From NCBI RefSeq assembly GCF_944385615.1, contig NZ_CALWXV010000020.1, positions 1 to 40,845 of the forward strand: 40,845 bases of DNA, in the 5' to 3' direction. How positions within the stretch are numbered: position 1 is the first letter of the stretch; each line of letters opens with the position of its first letter. Source of the stretch: an uncultured Flavonifractor sp. (GTDB lineage: Bacteria > Bacillota > Clostridia > Oscillospirales > Oscillospiraceae). Shown here piece after piece: positions 1 through 16,322 of the stretch. A model generated the notes under the pieces. The model made no database searches. It saw only the letters and a list, made by a program, of their open reading frames with translations, and was not told the origin of the DNA. The position numbers and the translations under genes were made by a program.

Positions 1-801
1 GAGCTGGCCGAGCGGGGCATCATCTATGTGGACGAGATCGACAAGATCGCCCGGAAGAGCGAGAACACCTCCATCACCCGGGATGTGTCCGGTGAAGGTG
101 TGCAGCAGGCCCTGCTGAAGATTCTGGAGGGTACGGTTGCCAACGTGCCCCCCCAGGGCGGCCGTAAGCACCCCCACCAGGAGTTCATTCAGATCAACAC
201 CAAGAACATCCTCTTCATCTGCGGCGGCGCCTTTGACGGGATGGATAAGATCATTGAGCAGCGCCTGGACAAAAAGACCATCGGCTTTGGGGCCGATATC
301 CAGACCAAGAAGGAGAAGGATACCGCCATCTTCAAGGAGGTCCAGCCCCATGACCTGCTGAAGTTCGGTATCATTCCCGAGCTGGTGGGCCGTCTGCCGG
401 TAATCACCACCCTGAACGCCCTGGATAAGGACCAGCTGGTGCGTATTCTCACCGAGCCCAAAAACGCTTTGGTGAAACAGTACCAGAAGCTGCTGGAGTA
501 TGATATGGTGGACCTGAGCTTTGACACCGCCGCTTTGGAGGCTGCCGCCGACAAGGCCATTGAACGGGGCATCGGCGCCCGCGGCCTGCGGGCGGTGCTG
601 GAAGAGGTCATGACCCAGACCATGTATGACGTGCCCTCTGATCCCACCATCACCAAGGTGACCATCACCGCCGACAGCGTGAAGAACCATGCGGCTCCCA
701 AGGTGGAGCATGATCCCGAGCGTACCCACCGGCCCCGGCTGGGAGGCGCCTCCCTCCGGGCCGAGCACGGAGGAAAAGCGCCCAAGGGAAATGTGTCCTA
801 A
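1..801 (+). CDS. clpX: ATP-dependent Clp protease ATP-binding subunit ClpX, 3' part (5' end outside window)
   Basis: C-terminal part of the AAA+ unfoldase that recognises tagged proteins and feeds them to ClpP in the cytoplasm. The frame is open from base 1 and begins just before the Walker B motif ([10 protein letters not shown]), so the N-terminal zinc domain and Walker A lie outside the window. Visible are the ClpX-typical RKH loop ([10 protein letters not shown]), the ELVGRLPV segment, and the sensor-2 motif GARGLR in the C-terminal small domain. The last 30 or so residues form a basic, glycine-rich tail. The TAA stop is at 799-801. lon follows directly, as in Bacillus, where clpX and lon genes are neighbours, but the lonB copy found there between them is absent here. 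The GTG at 28 is an internal valine, not a start. Confidence 0.97.
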
Positions 802-10257: not shown

Positions 10258-11127
10258 ATGCCGAAAGATATTCTCTCTACCATTCAATCTGAAATGAATA
10301 CCTTCTCCAAGGGGCAGAAGCTGATTGCCAACTTTATCCTGGAGTCCTACGATAAGGCCGCCTTTATGACGGCCAGCAAGCTGGGCAAGACGGTAAAGGT
10401 GAGCGAATCCACCGTAGTGCGTTTTGCTGCCGAGCTTGGCTACGACGGCTATCCTGCCATGCAAAAGGCATTACAGGAGATGATCCGCAACAAGCTCACC
10501 TCCATCCAGCGTATCGAAGTGACCAATGACCGCATCGGGGACCACGATATCCTGTCCATGGTGATGCAGTCGGACATTGAGAAGATCCGCCTGACCATGG
10601 AGGAGACCGATCAGGCCCAGTTCCAGCGGGCGGTGGATGCCATTGTAGGCGCCCGTCACATCTATATCCTGGGGGTGCGCTCCGCCGCTGCCATTGCCAG
10701 CTTTTTAGGCTTTTATTTTACCCTGATCTTTCAGAATGTGACCATCATCCACACCACCTCGGCCAGTGAAGTCTTTGAGCAGCTGCTCCACATCGGACCG
10801 GAGGATGTGATCATCGGCATCAGCTTCCCCCGTTACTCCCGCCGGACGGTAAAGGCCATGCAGTTTGCCCACGACCGGGGAGCGGAGGCCATCGCCATCA
10901 CCGACAGCGGAGCGTCGCCCCTGACCCCCTATTCCTCTATCACCCTGCTGGCCAAGAGCGATATGGCTTCCTTTGTGGACTCTTTGGTGGCCCCCCTCAG
11001 CCTGGTCAACGCCCTCATTGTGGCCATCGGCCGGAAGAAGAACGACGACCTCTCCCACACCTTTGAGAGCCTGGAGCGGATTTGGGACGAGTATGAGGTC
11101 TACGAGAAGGTGGACGAGAACAGTTGA
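10258..11127 (+). CDS. MurR/RpiR family transcriptional regulator
   Basis: Sugar-phosphate-responsive DNA-binding regulator. The N-terminal helix-turn-helix domain spans about residues 1-77 (TASKLGKTVKVSESTVVRFAAELGYDGY is the recognition region). A SIS sugar-isomerase-like effector domain covers about 120-260 (YILGVRSAAAIASFLGFYF, ISFPRYSRRTVKAMQFAHDRGAEAIAITDS). 289 residues, typical size. ATG 10258 is preceded by GGGAGGT; the frame extends further upstream but through the leader hairpins without a ribosome site. No sugar catabolic gene is adjacent, which is unusual for the family, so its effector and targets are unknown; autoregulation through the upstream palindrome is possible. Its stop overlaps the next start. 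Confidence 0.92.
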   Translation: MPKDILSTIQSEMNTFSKGQKLIANFILESYDKAAFMTASKLGKTVKVSESTVVRFAAELGYDGYPAMQKALQEMIRNKLTSIQRIEVTNDRIGDHDILSMVMQSDIEKIRLTMEETDQAQFQRAVDAIVGARHIYILGVRSAAAIASFLGFYFTLIFQNVTIIHTTSASEVFEQLLHIGPEDVIIGISFPRYSRRTVKAMQFAHDRGAEAIAITDSGASPLTPYSSITLLAKSDMASFVDSLVAPLSLVNALIVAIGRKKNDDLSHTFESLERIWDEYEVYEKVDENS

Positions 11128-12380
11128 GTGAGATCATCGTCATCGGCGGCGGCGCCGCCGGATGTATGGCGGCCCTGGCCGCCGCGGAGCAGGGGGCGTC
11201 TGTCACCCTGCTGGAGCGCAATCCCAAGCTGGGCCGCAAGCTGTACATCACCGGCAAGGGCCGGTGCAATGTGACCAACCACTGTACGGTGCAGGAACTG
11301 CTGCAAAACATCCCTGGCAACAGCAAATTCCTCACCAGCGCCGCCACCCGTTTTCCCCCGGAGGAGGCGGAGGCTTTTTTTGAAGGGTTGGGGGTCCCGC
11401 TGAAGATCGAGCGGGGCAACCGGGTCTTCCCCCAGTCCGACAAAGCTGCCGATATCATCGACGCCCTGCTGCGGGCCTTGCGGAAGGCAAAGGTGGCTAT
11501 TGTTCAGGACCGGGCGGTCAGCCTGACGGTAGAAGAAGAGGACCGGCTTACCGGCGTAACAGGGGAGCAGGGGGAGTACCCCTGCAAGGCGGTGGTCATT
11601 GCCACCGGCGGGGTGAGCTACCCCCTCACCGGGTCCACCGGCGACGGGTACGAATTTGCCCGGGCTCTGGGCCACACCATTGTAGAGCCCCGGCCTTCTC
11701 TGGTGCCCTTGGTGGCAGAGCAGCCCTTCTGCGCCCAGATGCAGGGGCTCAGCCTGCGCAATGTGGCCATCCAGGTAAAGAACAGTAAGAAGAAAACGGT
11801 GTACGCCGAACAGGGGGAGCTGCTTTTCACCCACTTCGGCCTGTCCGGACCGCTGATTCTCAGCGCTTCGGCCCATATGCGCAGCATGGACAAAGAGCAC
11901 TATTTTATTCTGCTGGATCTGAAGCCCGCCCTGGACCAAGAAAAGCTGGACAATCGCCTGCTGCGGGACCTGGGCGAGCAGGCCAACAAGGATTTCCGCC
12001 ATGTGCTGGAGGGATTGGTACCCCGGCTGATGGTGCCGGTACTGTTGGAGCTCACCGGTATCCCGGGAGACTTGAAGGCCAATTCCATTACCAAAGTCCA
12101 GCGGCGGAAGCTGCTGGAGACCCTGAAGGGGCTGCGTATCGATATATCCGGTCCCCGGCCTATTGGGGAGGCCATCGTCACCGCCGGCGGGGTCAAAACG
12201 TCGGAGGTGGACCCCCACACCATGGCTTCTAAAAAGGTCCAGGGGGTCTTTTTTGCCGGTGAGGTGCTGGATGCGGACGCCTATACCGGAGGCTTTAATT
12301 TGCAGATCGCCTGGTCCACCGGCCGGGCGGCGGGACGCGGTGCGGCAGAGGCCGTCCGTCTCACCAAGGAGGCAGAGTGA
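11124..12380 (+). CDS. HI0933/YhiN-type NAD(P)/FAD-dependent oxidoreductase
   Basis: Flavoprotein of the HI0933 family, whose physiological substrate is not established. The N-terminal dinucleotide-binding motif is IIVIGGGAAGCMAALAAAEQGASVTLLERN, and the family signature GRKLYITGKGRCNVTN follows. A middle insertion domain and a C-terminal FAD-contacting segment (GVFFAGEVLDADAYTGGFNLQIAWSTGRAAG) are intact. 418 residues, normal. The proposed start is TTG 11124, overlapping the regulator stop by 4 bp (TTGA), with AAGGTGG about 11 bases upstream. Neighbouring cmk, plsC and ispH/rpsA form one operon; the same flavoprotein-cmk order recurs in Clostridia. Confidence 0.93.
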   Translation: MSEIIVIGGGAAGCMAALAAAEQGASVTLLERNPKLGRKLYITGKGRCNVTNHCTVQELLQNIPGNSKFLTSAATRFPPEEAEAFFEGLGVPLKIERGNRVFPQSDKAADIIDALLRALRKAKVAIVQDRAVSLTVEEEDRLTGVTGEQGEYPCKAVVIATGGVSYPLTGSTGDGYEFARALGHTIVEPRPSLVPLVAEQPFCAQMQGLSLRNVAIQVKNSKKKTVYAEQGELLFTHFGLSGPLILSASAHMRSMDKEHYFILLDLKPALDQEKLDNRLLRDLGEQANKDFRHVLEGLVPRLMVPVLLELTGIPGDLKANSITKVQRRKLLETLKGLRIDISGPRPIGEAIVTAGGVKTSEVDPHTMASKKVQGVFFAGEVLDADAYTGGFNLQIAWSTGRAAGRGAAEAVRLTKEAE

Positions 12381-12381
12381 T

Positions 12382-13062
12382 ATGACCAAGCACAGGAGTA
12401 TTGCCATTGATGGGCCCTCAGGGGCGGGCAAATCCACCTTGGCCCGGGCCCTGGCCAAAGGGCTGGGCTATTTATATGTAGATACAGGGGCAATCTACCG
12501 CACAGTGGGCCTACAGGCCTGCCGGGCGGGGGTGGACCCGGAGAACAGTGAAGCAGTGACCGCCTTGTTGCCCAACCTGGAGATCGGCATGGGCTATGGA
12601 GAGGACGGTGTGCAACGGATGTACCTTAACGGAGAGGATGTGTCTCAGGCCATCCGGCAGCATGAGATCTCCCGGTACGCCTCCTGCGTGTCCGCCCTGC
12701 CAGCGGTGCGGGCCTTCCTGTTGGACCGGCAGCGAAAGCTGGCGGAGGAACACGATGTGGTGATGGATGGCCGGGATATCGGTACTGTGGTGCTGCCCCA
12801 GGCCGATGTGAAGATCTTCCTCACCGCCGCCCCTGAGGCCCGGGCCCGCCGGCGCTGGCTGGAATTGCGGGAGCGGGGAGAAGAGGCCGATTACGACACC
12901 ATACTTCAGGATGTAAAGGACCGGGATGAGAAAGACACCCACCGAGCCACCGCGCCCCTCCGACAGGCGGAGGACGCAGTACTGGCCGACACCACCGAGC
13001 TGGACCTGGACCAGAGCCTTGCGCTGCTGATGAACATCGTAAAGGAGCGGCTGCAGGCATGA
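12382..13062 (+). CDS. cmk: Cytidylate kinase
   Basis: Phosphorylates CMP and dCMP with ATP in pyrimidine nucleotide metabolism. P-loop GPSGAGKST begins near residue 11. The CMP-binding and lid features DTGAIYRTVGLQA, MDGRDIGTVVLPQADVKIFLTA and the arginine-rich RARRRWLEL lid follow in order. 226 residues, typical of bacterial Cmk. ATG 12382 follows AAGGAGG by about 9 bases and starts one base after the flavoprotein stop. An in-frame opening further upstream lies entirely inside the flavoprotein gene and is not used. The stop overlaps the plsC start by 4 bp. Confidence 0.96.
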   Translation: MTKHRSIAIDGPSGAGKSTLARALAKGLGYLYVDTGAIYRTVGLQACRAGVDPENSEAVTALLPNLEIGMGYGEDGVQRMYLNGEDVSQAIRQHEISRYASCVSALPAVRAFLLDRQRKLAEEHDVVMDGRDIGTVVLPQADVKIFLTAAPEARARRRWLELRERGEEADYDTILQDVKDRDEKDTHRATAPLRQAEDAVLADTTELDLDQSLALLMNIVKERLQA

Positions 13063-13655
13063 ACATCATCTACTTTCTGTCCTATCTGGTGCTCTGGCCG
13101 GCCTTCCGCATCTTCAAACCAACCAAGTGTATCAACAAGAGCAACTTTCCCACCGGCGGGGCCCTGCTGTGTGCCAACCATACCCGAATGAGCGACCCCC
13201 TCTTCATTGCCTACGCCCTGGGACTGAAGCATCCCATTCATGTTATGGCCAAGGAAGAGGTCATGCACTGGCCCATCATCGGCTGGATCTTGAAAAAGGG
13301 CGGCATTTTCGGCGTCAAGCGGGGCCAGGCCGACATCGGGGCCATCAAGACCGCTATGAAATACCTGAAGGGCGGGGAGCTGCTGCTCATGTTCCCTGAG
13401 GGGACCCGCCACCAGGACGGCGACTTCGGCGACGCCAAGACGGGGGCCGCCATGCTGGCCACCCGTACCGGCGTGCCCATCGTGCCCATCTACGTCCCGG
13501 CGGAGAAACGTTGGTTCCGTTGGAATCCCGTGGTTATTGGGGAGCCCTACTACCCCCAGACCTCCGGAAAGCGTGCCACTCCGGAGGAGTACCACGCCAT
13601 TTCTGAGAACCTGATGGTCCGTATCGAGGCGCTCCAGCCTCAGGCCGGCCGATGA
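13059..13655 (+). CDS. plsC: 1-acyl-sn-glycerol-3-phosphate acyltransferase
   Basis: Membrane-associated acyltransferase that converts lysophosphatidic acid to phosphatidic acid. The catalytic HX4D motif is His41-Asp46 (NHTRMSD). The glycerol-phosphate binding motif FPEGTR and the later PIVPIYVP segment are present. A short hydrophobic N-terminus (YFLSYLVLWPAFRIF) can anchor it to the membrane. 198 residues, the usual short bacterial form. The start overlaps the cmk stop and the stop overlaps ispH (both 4 bp), so the cmk-plsC-ispH genes are translationally coupled. Confidence 0.95.
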   Translation: MNIIYFLSYLVLWPAFRIFKPTKCINKSNFPTGGALLCANHTRMSDPLFIAYALGLKHPIHVMAKEEVMHWPIIGWILKKGGIFGVKRGQADIGAIKTAMKYLKGGELLLMFPEGTRHQDGDFGDAKTGAAMLATRTGVPIVPIYVPAEKRWFRWNPVVIGEPYYPQTSGKRATPEEYHAISENLMVRIEALQPQAGR

Positions 13656-15595
13656 GGGTGGAGCTGGCCCGGTCCGCCGGATTCTGCTACGGTGTGCGCC
13701 GGGCGGTGGAGTTGGCCGAGCAGGCCGCCCGCAGCGGCCAGCCCTGCGCCATGCTGGGGCCCATCATTCATAACAGCAGTGTGATTGACTATTTGAAGGA
13801 GCAGGGGGTGGCTCTGGTCCAGACTCCCGAGGAGGTGCCTGCCGGTACTGCGGTTATCATCCGCTCCCACGGAGAGGGAAGGGCGGTCCATCAGGCCCTG
13901 GCAGAACGGGGATGCCCCGTCATTGACGCCACCTGCCCCAATGTCTCCCGCATCCACCGGATTGTGGAAGAGGCAGAAGGGGAGGGGCGGCAGGTGCTCA
14001 TCATCGGGATGCCCGACCACCCGGAGGTGGAGGCCATCGCCGGATGGTGTGCCCATCCCGTTGTGCTGGAAGGGAAAGCGGCTCTGACACAGTGGCTGGA
14101 AGAGGACCCGAAGCGGCAGGAGATGCCCATTACCATGGTGTCCCAAACCACCTCCACCCACTTTATCTGGACAGAGTGCGTAAAAAAAGCAAAAAAAGAG
14201 TGTACAAATTTAAAAATTTTTGATACAATATGTAATGCTACGTATAAACGACAGTCTGAGGCCCAGGCGCTGGCCGCCCGAAGCGATGCTATGGTCGTCA
14301 TCGGCGGGCGGGAAAGCTCCAATACCAGACGGCTGTCCGAGTTATGCAAGGCGCTCTGCCCCATGGTGGTTTGGATCGAACGGGCGGCGGAGCTGGAACC
14401 TTCCACCCTGTTTCGGAAGGCTTCTATTGGAATCACTGCGGGCGCGTCCACGCCTGAGTGGATTATAAAGGAGGTCTATGACAAAATGAGCGACGAAAAC
14501 ATTGAGATCGAGGAATCCTTTGCTGAAATGCTGGAGAAATCGATCAAGACTTTAAATACAGGGGAGAAGGTCACGGGCGTTGTCACTGGCATTACGCCTA
14601 CTGAGATCTATGTGGATCTTGGCACCAAGCACGCCGGTTACATACCGGTGTCCGAGCTGACCGACGACCCCACGGTCAAGGTCGAGGATCTGGTAAAAGT
14701 CGGCGATGAGATCGAGACTTATGTCATGCGCGTGAACGACCAGGAGGGTGTTGTCACCCTCTCCAAGAAGCGCCTTGACACCGTGAAGAGCTGGGAAGAC
14801 GTGGAGCAGGCCAAGGAGGATCACACCGTTATGGAGGGTGTGGTCACCGAGGAGAACAAGGGCGGCGTGGTCGTGTCCATCAAGGGCGTGCGCGTCTTTG
14901 TACCCGCTTCCCAGACCGGCCTGCCCCGGGATACTCCCATGAGCCAGCTGGTCAAGCAGAGAGTGCGCCTGCGCATCACCGAGGTTAACCGCGCCCGTAA
15001 GCGCGTGGTGGGTTCCATCCGCGCCGTTGAGGCGGAGGAGCGGGCTGCCAAGGCCGCCGAGGTGTGGGCCAACATCGAGGAGGGCAAGCGCTACACTGGT
15101 ACCGTGAAGAGCCTGACCTCTTACGGCGCCTTTGTGGACATCGGCGGCGTGGACGGCATGGTCCACATCTCCGAGCTGTCCTGGTCCCGCATCAAGCACC
15201 CCTCCGAGGTCGTCTCCGTGGGCGACACCGTGGAGGTGTATGTCATCTCCTTCGACCCCGAGAAGAAGAAGATCTCTCTGGGCATGAAGGACCGTACCCA
15301 GAACCCCTGGGAGATCTTCACCGGCAAGTATCAGGTGGGCGACGTGGCCAATGTCCGCGTGGTCAAGCTGATGACCTTCGGCGCCTTCGCTGAGATCGTG
15401 CCCGGTGTGGATGGTCTGATCCACATCTCCCAGATCGCCGACCACCGCATCGACAAGCCCGGCGACGTACTGAGCGAGGGCCAGATGGTGGACGTGAAGA
15501 TCATCGACATCGACTACGACCACAAGAAGGTCTCCCTGTCCATCCGCGCTCTGCTGGAGGGCGGTCAGGAGGAGTCCGCTCCTGTGGAGGAGTAA
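13652..15595 (+). CDS. ispH-rpsA: Fused 4-hydroxy-3-methylbut-2-enyl diphosphate reductase / 30S ribosomal protein S1
   Basis: Two-function protein of 647 residues. Residues 1-280 are IspH, the [4Fe-4S] enzyme making IPP and DMAPP at the end of the MEP pathway. Cluster cysteines are Cys12 (FCYGVRR), Cys95 (DATCP) and Cys194 (DTICNAT). Substrate-binding His40, His73 and His123 and catalytic Glu125 (HPEVE) are present. Residues from about 303 to 633 hold four S1 RNA-binding repeats starting near 303, 392, 477 and 562, each with the GAFVD/HIS-type core. Such fusions are known in Clostridia. Codon use changes at the junction: the S1 part favours CGC for Arg, as in highly expressed genes. An internal ribosome site and ATG at 14486 could yield S1 alone. 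The start overlaps plsC. Confidence 0.96.
   Translation: MRVELARSAGFCYGVRRAVELAEQAARSGQPCAMLGPIIHNSSVIDYLKEQGVALVQTPEEVPAGTAVIIRSHGEGRAVHQALAERGCPVIDATCPNVSRIHRIVEEAEGEGRQVLIIGMPDHPEVEAIAGWCAHPVVLEGKAALTQWLEEDPKRQEMPITMVSQTTSTHFIWTECVKKAKKECTNLKIFDTICNATYKRQSEAQALAARSDAMVVIGGRESSNTRRLSELCKALCPMVVWIERAAELEPSTLFRKASIGITAGASTPEWIIKEVYDKMSDENIEIEESFAEMLEKSIKTLNTGEKVTGVVTGITPTEIYVDLGTKHAGYIPVSELTDDPTVKVEDLVKVGDEIETYVMRVNDQEGVVTLSKKRLDTVKSWEDVEQAKEDHTVMEGVVTEENKGGVVVSIKGVRVFVPASQTGLPRDTPMSQLVKQRVRLRITEVNRARKRVVGSIRAVEAEERAAKAAEVWANIEEGKRYTGTVKSLTSYGAFVDIGGVDGMVHISELSWSRIKHPSEVVSVGDTVEVYVISFDPEKKKISLGMKDRTQNPWEIFTGKYQVGDVANVRVVKLMTFGAFAEIVPGVDGLIHISQIADHRIDKPGDVLSEGQMVDVKIIDIDYDHKKVSLSIRALLEGGQEESAPVEE
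14201..14229 (+). promoter_or_regulatory. Candidate internal promoter inside ispH
   Basis: TGTACA at 14201-14206 (4 of 6 to TTGACA) and TACAAT at 14224-14229 with 17 bases between, the -10 preceded by TGA (extended -10). It lies in a strikingly AT-rich island (about 14180-14250) where codons such as TTA, ATA, ATT and TTT replace the preferred GC-ending ones. It would make a transcript with the S1 part but no complete IspH. Confidence 0.5.
14467..14488 (+). promoter_or_regulatory. Internal Shine-Dalgarno and ATG for a stand-alone S1 product
   Basis: AAAGGAGGT at 14467-14475 is followed, 11 bases after GGAGG, by in-frame ATG 14486 (Met279). Initiation here gives a 369-residue protein (14486-15595) containing all four S1 repeats, close to the size of free clostridial S1. 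The site falls exactly at the end of the IspH domain. Confidence 0.5.
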
Positions 15596-15606
15596 TTCCG
15601 CATCCC

Positions 15607-15641
15607 AACCGGGGACGCTCTGTGGAGCGTCCCCGGTTTTT
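15607..15641 (+). terminator. Strong rho-independent terminator after ispH-rpsA
   Basis: Perfect 14-bp stem (15607-15620 with 15625-15638), loop TGTG, followed by a five-T run at 15637-15641. Ends the rpiR-ispH/rpsA operon. Confidence 0.92.
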
Positions 15642-15732
15642 CGTTGCTCTATGACCGAGCATAGACAGACAATGGGGCCTGGAGGCAGAAAAAACGGTTT
15701 TTTCGCCCTGTGTCCCGCTATTTTTACAAGGA

Positions 15733-15752
15733 TGCAAGTAATTTTACTTGCA
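15733..15752 (+). promoter_or_regulatory. Perfect palindrome over the carD -35, candidate operator
   Basis: TGCAAGTAATTTTACTTGCA is a perfect palindrome: 9-base arms around TT, fully symmetric. Its right end contains most of the -35 TTGCAA (15748-15753), so a protein bound here would compete with RNA polymerase. The regulator is unknown; the right half shares CTTGCAAA with the palindrome at 10055-10069. Confidence 0.55.
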
Positions 15753-15776
15753 AAGTATTCCAATCAAGTCTATAAT
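15748..15776 (+). promoter_or_regulatory. Sigma-A promoter of carD
   Basis: -35 TTGCAA at 15748-15753, perfect -10 TATAAT at 15771-15776, spacing 17. The carD start is about 70 bases downstream. The surrounding 15720-15800 is AT-rich compared with the genome. Confidence 0.8.
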
Positions 15777-15845
15777 AGATTTGTATTGGATAAAACAAGG
15801 TAAGGAGTGTAGGAAAACCGGACGGATCTACTGGGAGGTGGGATC

Positions 15846-16322
15846 GTGTTTCAGGTAGGGGACAAAATCGTTCACCCGATGCATGGTGCCGGCATTGTGG
15901 ACAGCATTGTGCAGAAGAAAATCAACGGTGTCGTGCGGGAGTATTATATGCTTAAGCTGCCTGTGGGCGGAATGCTGGTGATGATCCCCACAGAAAACAG
16001 CGATGAGATCGGTGTGCGCCCGGTCATCAACGGGGAGGAGGCGGACCGCGTCATTGCCGCCATTCCCGACATTGAGGTGGACATGACCCCCAACTGGAAC
16101 CGCCGTTATCGGGAAAATATGCTCCGGCTGAAAAGCGGGGATCTGTTGGAGGTGGCCCGTGTGGTGAAAGGGCTGACTCACCGGGATGAGGAGCGGGGAC
16201 TGTCCACCGGGGAGCGCAAGATGCTCCACTCCGCCAAACAGATTCTGATCTCAGAGATCGTACTGTCTCAAAACGCCAGCTATGAGGATGTGGAAGCCCG
16301 CATCAACACCGCCATGGCGTAA
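15846..16322 (+). CDS. carD: CarD family transcriptional regulator
   Basis: CarD/CdnL-type protein that binds the RNA polymerase beta subunit and stabilises open complexes. The N-terminal RNA-polymerase-interacting domain (FQVGDKIVHPMHGAGIV through about residue 65) is the Tudor-like CarD_TRCF domain. The remaining 90 residues are a helical DNA-binding domain (WNRRYRENMLRLKSGDLLEVARVVKGL, ERKMLHSAKQILISEI). 158 residues, normal. GTG 15846 follows GGGAGGTG at 15832-15839. It has its own promoter with a palindrome over the -35 and a hairpin terminator behind it. ispD and ispF follow, giving a carD-ispD-ispF arrangement also seen in other Firmicutes. Confidence 0.95.
   Translation: MFQVGDKIVHPMHGAGIVDSIVQKKINGVVREYYMLKLPVGGMLVMIPTENSDEIGVRPVINGEEADRVIAAIPDIEVDMTPNWNRRYRENMLRLKSGDLLEVARVVKGLTHRDEERGLSTGERKMLHSAKQILISEIVLSQNASYEDVEARINTAMA

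Follow-up and report, generated by a model that had tools for sequence, protein, structure and literature searches.

We propose that the ispH-S1 "fusion" of an uncultured Flavonifractor sp. is very probably a pair of genes overlapping in frame: within ispH lies what appears to be an S1 gene with a promoter, ribosome site, and ATG of its own. Since the nested S1 gene appears to have its own start site and often its own candidate promoter, S1 is probably also produced separately in the Clostridia. Comparison of relatives shows nucleotide-level conservation of the ribosome site and start across the Clostridia and other classes, and both track the presence of S1 directly downstream. The promoter-like element, seen in sequence only, does not vary at synonymous positions within the family (Oscillospiraceae) and is common in the order (Oscillospirales) and the class. 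The original prediction for this DNA had described the internal ribosome site and ATG at the IspH-S1 junction and had read them as a route to dual production; the comparisons below confirm the observation and support the reading. Throughout, "the window" is the whole stretch analyzed, 40,845 nucleotides of contig NZ_CALWXV010000020.1.

The ispH-S1 locus

The gene has the architecture of an IspH-S1 fusion, a LytB domain followed by four PF00575 stretches in a single frame, and it scores 716 bits over residues 1-638 against NF000907 (IspH / 30S S1 bifunctional fusion; curated cut-off, 624). The LytB/IspH domain runs to residue 279-280, and the match to the 30S S1 model, NF005208, begins at 288 and exceeds its curated cut-off over residues 288-642 (393.7 bits versus 368). 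By the family model, the IspH part is a putative HMBPP reductase. The features discussed here are as follows, in window coordinates.

13652..15595 (+), ispH-S1 frame, 647 aa, annotated as bifunctional IspH / 30S ribosomal protein S1
13652..14488 (+), IspH (LytB) domain, residues 1-279, with a PF02401 match at residues 3-279
14180..14199 (+), A-rich stretch, putatively UP-element-like, directly upstream of the -35 box; its GCA AAA AAA codons are largely fixed in the family
14201..14206 (+), candidate -35 box TGTACA, codons 184-185; TGT ACA in 91/91 distinct family rows
14221..14229 (+), candidate extended -10 box TGATACAAT after a 17-nt spacer; GAT ACA ATA (codons 191-193) in 91/91 distinct family rows
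14236 (+), predicted transcription start, placed by position rule ~7 nt past the -10 box
14467..14475 (+), Shine-Dalgarno site AAAGGAGGT; GGAGG in 158/159 aligned rows
14486..15595 (+), predicted nested S1 gene, 369 aa with four PF00575 repeats, ATG at 14486-14488 (Met279)
14552-14770, 14816-15022, 15077-15289, and 15326-15547 (+), S1 repeats of the nested gene
15607..15638 (+), terminator-like hairpin of 14 pairs with a T run, the predicted common end of both transcripts

Upstream, the gene order (window 11124-15595) is an HI0933-like flavoprotein gene, cmk, a plsC-like acyltransferase gene, and ispH-S1, and the ispH ATG overlaps the stop of the acyltransferase open reading frame (ORF; 13059-13655) through a shared ATGA at 13652-13655. 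Downstream, the hairpin is one of 4 terminator-like sites found in 12000-16200, where 2.6 were expected. The AT-rich gap ahead of the next ORF, at 15846, holds a promoter-like site (15748-15776, TTGCAA-17-TATAAT, 10/12 matches).

Elsewhere in the genome, which is 89.6% complete, S1-domain matches fall in five other open frames (157, 735, 734, 456, and 807 aa) with one match each, and no second four-repeat S1 protein is found among them. A single four-repeat S1 fits the argument from stoichiometry made in the original prediction, in which S1 would be needed in abundance and IspH would be scarce.

An internal ribosome site and start codon

The predicted site and start lie where they had been placed: AAAGGAGGT occupies 14467-14475, and the ATG at 14486-14488, at the end of the LytB domain, is codon 279 of the frame that opens at 13652. 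Initiation there would give the 369-aa product with four S1 repeats that had been foreseen. As had been noted, the ATA at the site is rare (3 of the gene's 47 Ile codons). Two of the gene's three ATA codons belong to elements described here: codon 272 lies at the ribosome site, and codon 193 is part of the -10 box. The Shine-Dalgarno core, however, is spelled AAG GAG GTC, all common codons in this genome. The window ORF also contains three further combinations of GGAGG with an in-frame ATG, GTG, or TTG at 5-13 nt. Because the core codons are ordinary for a GC-rich genome and such combinations recur in the ORF, the window taken by itself offers no more than chance would.

Predicted pairing with the 16S rRNA tail in the window is -3.6 kcal/mol at the ispH start and -13.2 kcal/mol at the internal site; a search for the tail in the window's own genome gave no match. 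The internal site pairs more strongly than the ispH start in 76 of 82 family rows, a weak comparison because 23 of the 82 are not aligned on ATG or GTG and 62 have GGAG or GAGG before ispH; our argument relies on the window value. When the window leader is folded as a single sequence, 8 of the 9 bases of the Shine-Dalgarno site are paired, and RNAalifold on 21 family rows gave no sign that this pairing is conserved. If real, the predicted fold over the site could be a control point.

Conservation of the site in fused genes

Conservation at the nucleotide level in relatives had been named beforehand as the test on which the prediction could fail, and the site passed it. Of the 183 fused genes counted, 182 have GGAGG followed 8 or 11 nt later by an in-frame ATG or GTG, in genomes down to 25% GC; by source, these are 156/157 from the class and 26/26 from other classes of the phylum. 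The class sample covered 192 of 216 genomes (130 + 20 + 39 + 3), and the other-class sample consisted of 24 fused loci out of 299 phylum genomes plus 2 more. For alignment, 162 fused loci and the window made 163 rows, from which 4 duplicates were dropped to leave 159 distinct rows. The site and start are found in 158 of these (ATG in 156, GTG in 2), the sole exception being L228, which has GAGAGG and lacks GGAGG; the next most frequent place for GGAGG in the gene has it in 39/159 rows. All 24 further fused genes from 39 additional class genomes carry the site, as do L280-L282, which were left out of the counts.

The codons beneath the site are constrained in ways that their amino acids do not require. 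Codon 274 (Glu) is GAG in 159/159 aligned rows, including 32/32 rows under 33% GC, in which GAG makes up 21% (81/392) of other Glu codons; across the successively higher GC bands that share is 30% (56 rows), 39% (52 rows), and 42% (19 rows). Multiplied over rows, the probability of GAG at codon 274 is 10^-79 if rows are assumed independent, a figure that overstates the case because the rows are related. Residue 273 may be Lys, Glu, Arg, Gln, Leu, or Met, and yet its codon ends in G in 158/159 rows; GGAGG therefore survives amino-acid change. Residue 275 is Val or Ala, the codons of both of which begin with G. The junction holds a candidate internal in-frame start with a Shine-Dalgarno site at proper spacing that is conserved beyond amino-acid need.

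Within the family (91 distinct of 122 rows, with loci from Flavonifractor, Pseudoflavonifractor, Intestinimonas, Evtepia, and others), the ATG and AAG GAG are present in 91/91 rows and the rare ATA272 in 85/91. In so GC-rich a family AAG GAG carries little weight, because the Lys and Glu columns show little codon variation in any case. Observed versus expected codon variation in 12-codon windows is 0.38 versus 0.31 for codons 265-276, 0.13 versus 0.22 for 277-288, and 0.12 versus 0.27 for 181-192. Since the window 265-276 as a whole is not less variable than expected, we take the constraint to be confined to codons 272-274.

At genus level (18 rows, ten-codon blocks), synonymous difference from the window sequence is 0.2-0.54 over codons 1-170, 0.05-0.10 over 171-200 (the AT-rich patch described below), 0.17-0.30 over 201-240, and 0.00-0.09 over 241-310, with 0.00 at 271-280. 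The low values at 241-310 were set aside as evidence, being broader than the site and absent over 241-276 in the family. Codons 280-300 (14489-14551), just past the ATG, vary little in the family (TCG297 in 84/91 rows, ACT300 in 88/91), which may be the codon bias of a highly expressed gene. At the junctions of L281 and L319, a long acid-rich linker runs from the internal start to the first S1 repeat. One genome of the genus contains a second ispH-S1 junction (L029, G013:C64:62902-63756) with 80% identity over residues 1-285, the figure for G013:C29 being 89%; this second junction could be contamination of a draft genome.

Relatives with broken or unfused genes

In nine genomes from three families (f49, f82, and f87), ispH and S1 are separate, overlapping frames. 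All nine overlaps have GGAGG in the ispH tail, followed 9-13 nt later by an S1 ATG that is out of frame with ispH, and the N-termini of these S1 proteins (e.g., MSEQTFEQMLNESFKTIHTGE) are similar to the window residues from Met279 (MSDENIEIEESFAEMLEKSIKTLNTGE). At L353, S1 begins 45 nt past the ispH stop; there, the ispH tail is without the site (ATT AAC GAA GTA) and S1 is preceded by an AGGAGGT of its own. Of the ten unfused ispH genes for which up to about 1.5 kb of downstream DNA showed no S1, a single one (L360) has GGAGG and none has a start at the proper spacing; other codons or residues occupy the position of the site. On a tree of 203 rows, built by a quick method with many weak forks and no known root, the overlaps sit at three separate points among the fused rows, and the genes without S1 also at three points. 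From the frame breaks, L353, and the S1-less genes, we conclude that the ribosome site goes with S1 and not with IspH.

These relatives bear on two other accounts of the site. It might be a by-product of the residues I-K-E-V and of codon preference (AAG GAG GTN), with the full fusion as sole product, an account that the GC-rich family would suit, given its preference for AAG and GAG and its nearly invariant Lys and Glu codons. In addition, the Clostridium thermocellum IspH-RPS1 protein, 81 kDa in size with an N-terminal tag, is reported to have been made in E. coli and purified intact (PMC4746011). Against this stand the use of GAG at codon 274 in every row under 33% GC, the different codons or residues of unfused ispH genes that lack a downstream S1, and the frame-broken relatives, which begin S1 from the same site. 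We consider a full-length sole product highly improbable; the AT-rich relatives, residue changes, and unfused genes lead us to reject the idea that protein need or codon preference produced the site. Alternatively, GGAGG might signal a translation pause or assist folding between the IspH and S1 domains without serving any start. Its location at the domain boundary is what such a signal would call for, but the fixed start codon 8 or 11 nt away in 158/159 rows would be left unexplained, as would the nine out-of-frame S1 starts and the loss of the site at L353, where S1 has its own downstream site. This we regard as the least probable account of all, slightly below the previous one. A ribosome site serving a nested S1 gene remains our preferred reading.

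In a set of 20 class genomes, an IspH query returned no match in 12 that are at least 90% complete (G593, G640, G688, G586, G614, G642, G758, G765, G770, G786, G662, and G639); these 12 may lack this isoprenoid route.

A promoter-like element inside ispH

The original prediction found the ribosome site but overlooked a promoter-like element ~260-285 nt upstream of the internal ATG. Around 14162-14251, local GC content falls to 22-25% in a gene of about 60% GC, and a promoter scan identifies TGTACA-17-TACAAT with a TG extension (14201-14229; 9/12 matches), behind the A-rich stretch and within the codons for the IspH motif FDTIC. The scan finds two promoter-like sites in 12000-16200, versus 1.5 expected in shuffles. 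In form, the element resembles a housekeeping-sigma promoter, in which two conserved hexamers are separated by 16-18 nt; its spacer is 17 nt, and both hexamers are conserved in 91/91 family rows. The codons TGT, ACA, and ATA are non-preferred in the family, and the nearby conserved residues Thr197 and Arg200 vary in codon.

Across the order, the exact pattern TGTACA-N15-GATACAATATG is present in 107/295 genomes, 61/148 genera, and 14/26 families among those listed, with one match per genome as listed, and is missing from the other 188 of the 295 genomes; a reversed-pattern control matched 0/295. Coordinates of 20 of the 107 matches were compared with those of ispH matches, and 20/20 lay inside ispH. 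In the class, ACA ATA at codons 192-193 occurs in 82/130 rows versus about one in ten expected from codon usage (0.35 and 0.30), and in 0/29 rows of a comparison group (26 from other classes and 3 from the class). The best promoter falls in this slot in 97 class rows, 74 of them with TGATACAAT, and the -35 words differ by lineage (TTGCAA in 25 rows, TTTACA in 8, TTGCCA in 8, TTGTAA in 7, TTTGCA in 5, TGTACA in 4, and others). ACA ATA accompanies Asp191 in 74/90 class rows versus Asn191 in 6/35, though the Asn rows are more AT-rich. The Asp191 codon, GAT, provides the TG of the extended -10, and we infer that the promoter may have shaped residue 191. Synonymous shuffles of single rows gave p ≤ 0.05 in 34/130 class rows and p ≤ 0.01 in 5, in a test of low power; this significance is weak because the amino acids themselves impose much of the motif. 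Judged from these patterns, the promoter is patchier across lineages than the ribosome site.

Under a rival reading, only the ribosome site works: internal entry or re-initiation on the long transcript would supply S1 alone, and the AT-rich patch would have some other task, such as binding a regulator or acting as an RNA element. The sequence TGTACAAA...TTTGATACA (14201-14227) is an imperfect inverted repeat with a bulged A, and the -35 word TGTACA is palindromic and differs from the consensus TTGACA. The site is also the more widespread of the two, with 26/26 other-class fused rows carrying it and none of the 29 comparison rows having ACA ATA. However, the patch combines a -35 box, a 17-nt spacer, and a TG-extended -10, and lineages vary the -35-like word over the same -10, which suits a promoter better than it does one operator or hairpin. 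We therefore think it unlikely that the ribosome site works without the promoter, though this is the likeliest of the three alternatives weighed here. The inverted repeat could also be an operator or hairpin in addition to a promoter, and the nested S1 gene with its own promoter is the reading that we carry forward.

Predicted expression of IspH-S1 and S1

That RNA polymerase and ribosomes act at these sites is inferred from the signals described above, as are the start of transcription near 14236 and the proportions and functions of the two products. Ribosomes starting at 13652 on the operon transcript, where pairing with the 16S tail is poor, would make the full IspH-S1 protein in modest amounts. 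The internal promoter at 14201-14229 would give rise to an S1-only transcript ending at the terminator-like hairpin (15607-15638), and the strong site at 14467-14475 would direct synthesis of S1 alone from the ATG at 14486, being open on the long transcript as well. Free S1 would then be the form most likely to serve the ribosome and its main supply.

Known systems and significance

Internal in-frame starts that give a shorter C-terminal protein are known for Bacillus subtilis aspartokinase II and for E. coli infB, cheA, and clpB. Like these, the window gene has one frame, an internal Shine-Dalgarno site with a start, and two proteins sharing a C-terminus, the second of which is predicted here. 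Three things set it apart: its shorter product would be an essential ribosomal protein in its own right, frame breaks leave the site in place, and a candidate internal promoter is present in many species. The promoters of E. coli rpsA reside within the upstream cmk gene, and S1 is predicted to have a promoter inside an upstream gene here too; in E. coli the genes are separate, whereas here the promoter-bearing gene is joined in frame to S1. The nested product resembles the standalone Bacillota-type 30S S1 (NF005208, model length 391 aa) in exceeding the model cut-off over residues 288-642 and in its similar length (369 aa), but differs in being encoded within a larger frame without a separate gene. 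Internal in-frame starts and promoters in upstream genes are thus known kinds; what appears to be new is that, throughout a class, the gene for a ribosomal protein lies nested within an enzyme fusion.

The IspH-RPS1 fusion itself is already known and has been presented as a single-polypeptide "Rosetta stone" with speculated joint roles (PMC4746011). The window gene shares the arrangement of such fusions (PMC4746011; NF000907), which in anaerobic Bacillota carry four S1 repeats after IspH, and departs from the one-polypeptide account in having a candidate internal start and promoter. The words "internal," "start codon," and "promoter" occur nowhere in the main text of PMC4746011. To its author's knowledge, the retained internal start of the original prediction had not been described; in agreement with this, searches of open papers, supplements aside (including PMC4746011 and PMC6203783), turned up nothing that reports such a start, or a promoter, inside ispH-S1.

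Altogether, we somewhat favor a broader reading, held less firmly than the in-frame overlap itself, in which the Clostridia and neighboring classes draw their S1 mainly from the nested gene, the "Rosetta stone" IspH-S1 is an in-frame overlap that a frameshift can break with S1 intact, and the nested promoter of Oscillospirales-like lineages has gone as far as fixing amino acids next to the Thr-Ile-Cys motif of IspH. If true, a whole class of bacteria, abundant in the gut and in industry, would have a core ribosomal protein annotated from the wrong start. The joining of IspH to S1 as a sign of joint function would need re-reading, because the cell would retain a route to S1 alone, and the natural frame breaks would show that ispH and S1 are still separable. 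The locus would also be a clear case in which DNA signals, a promoter and a ribosome site, constrain the sequence of an iron-sulfur enzyme.
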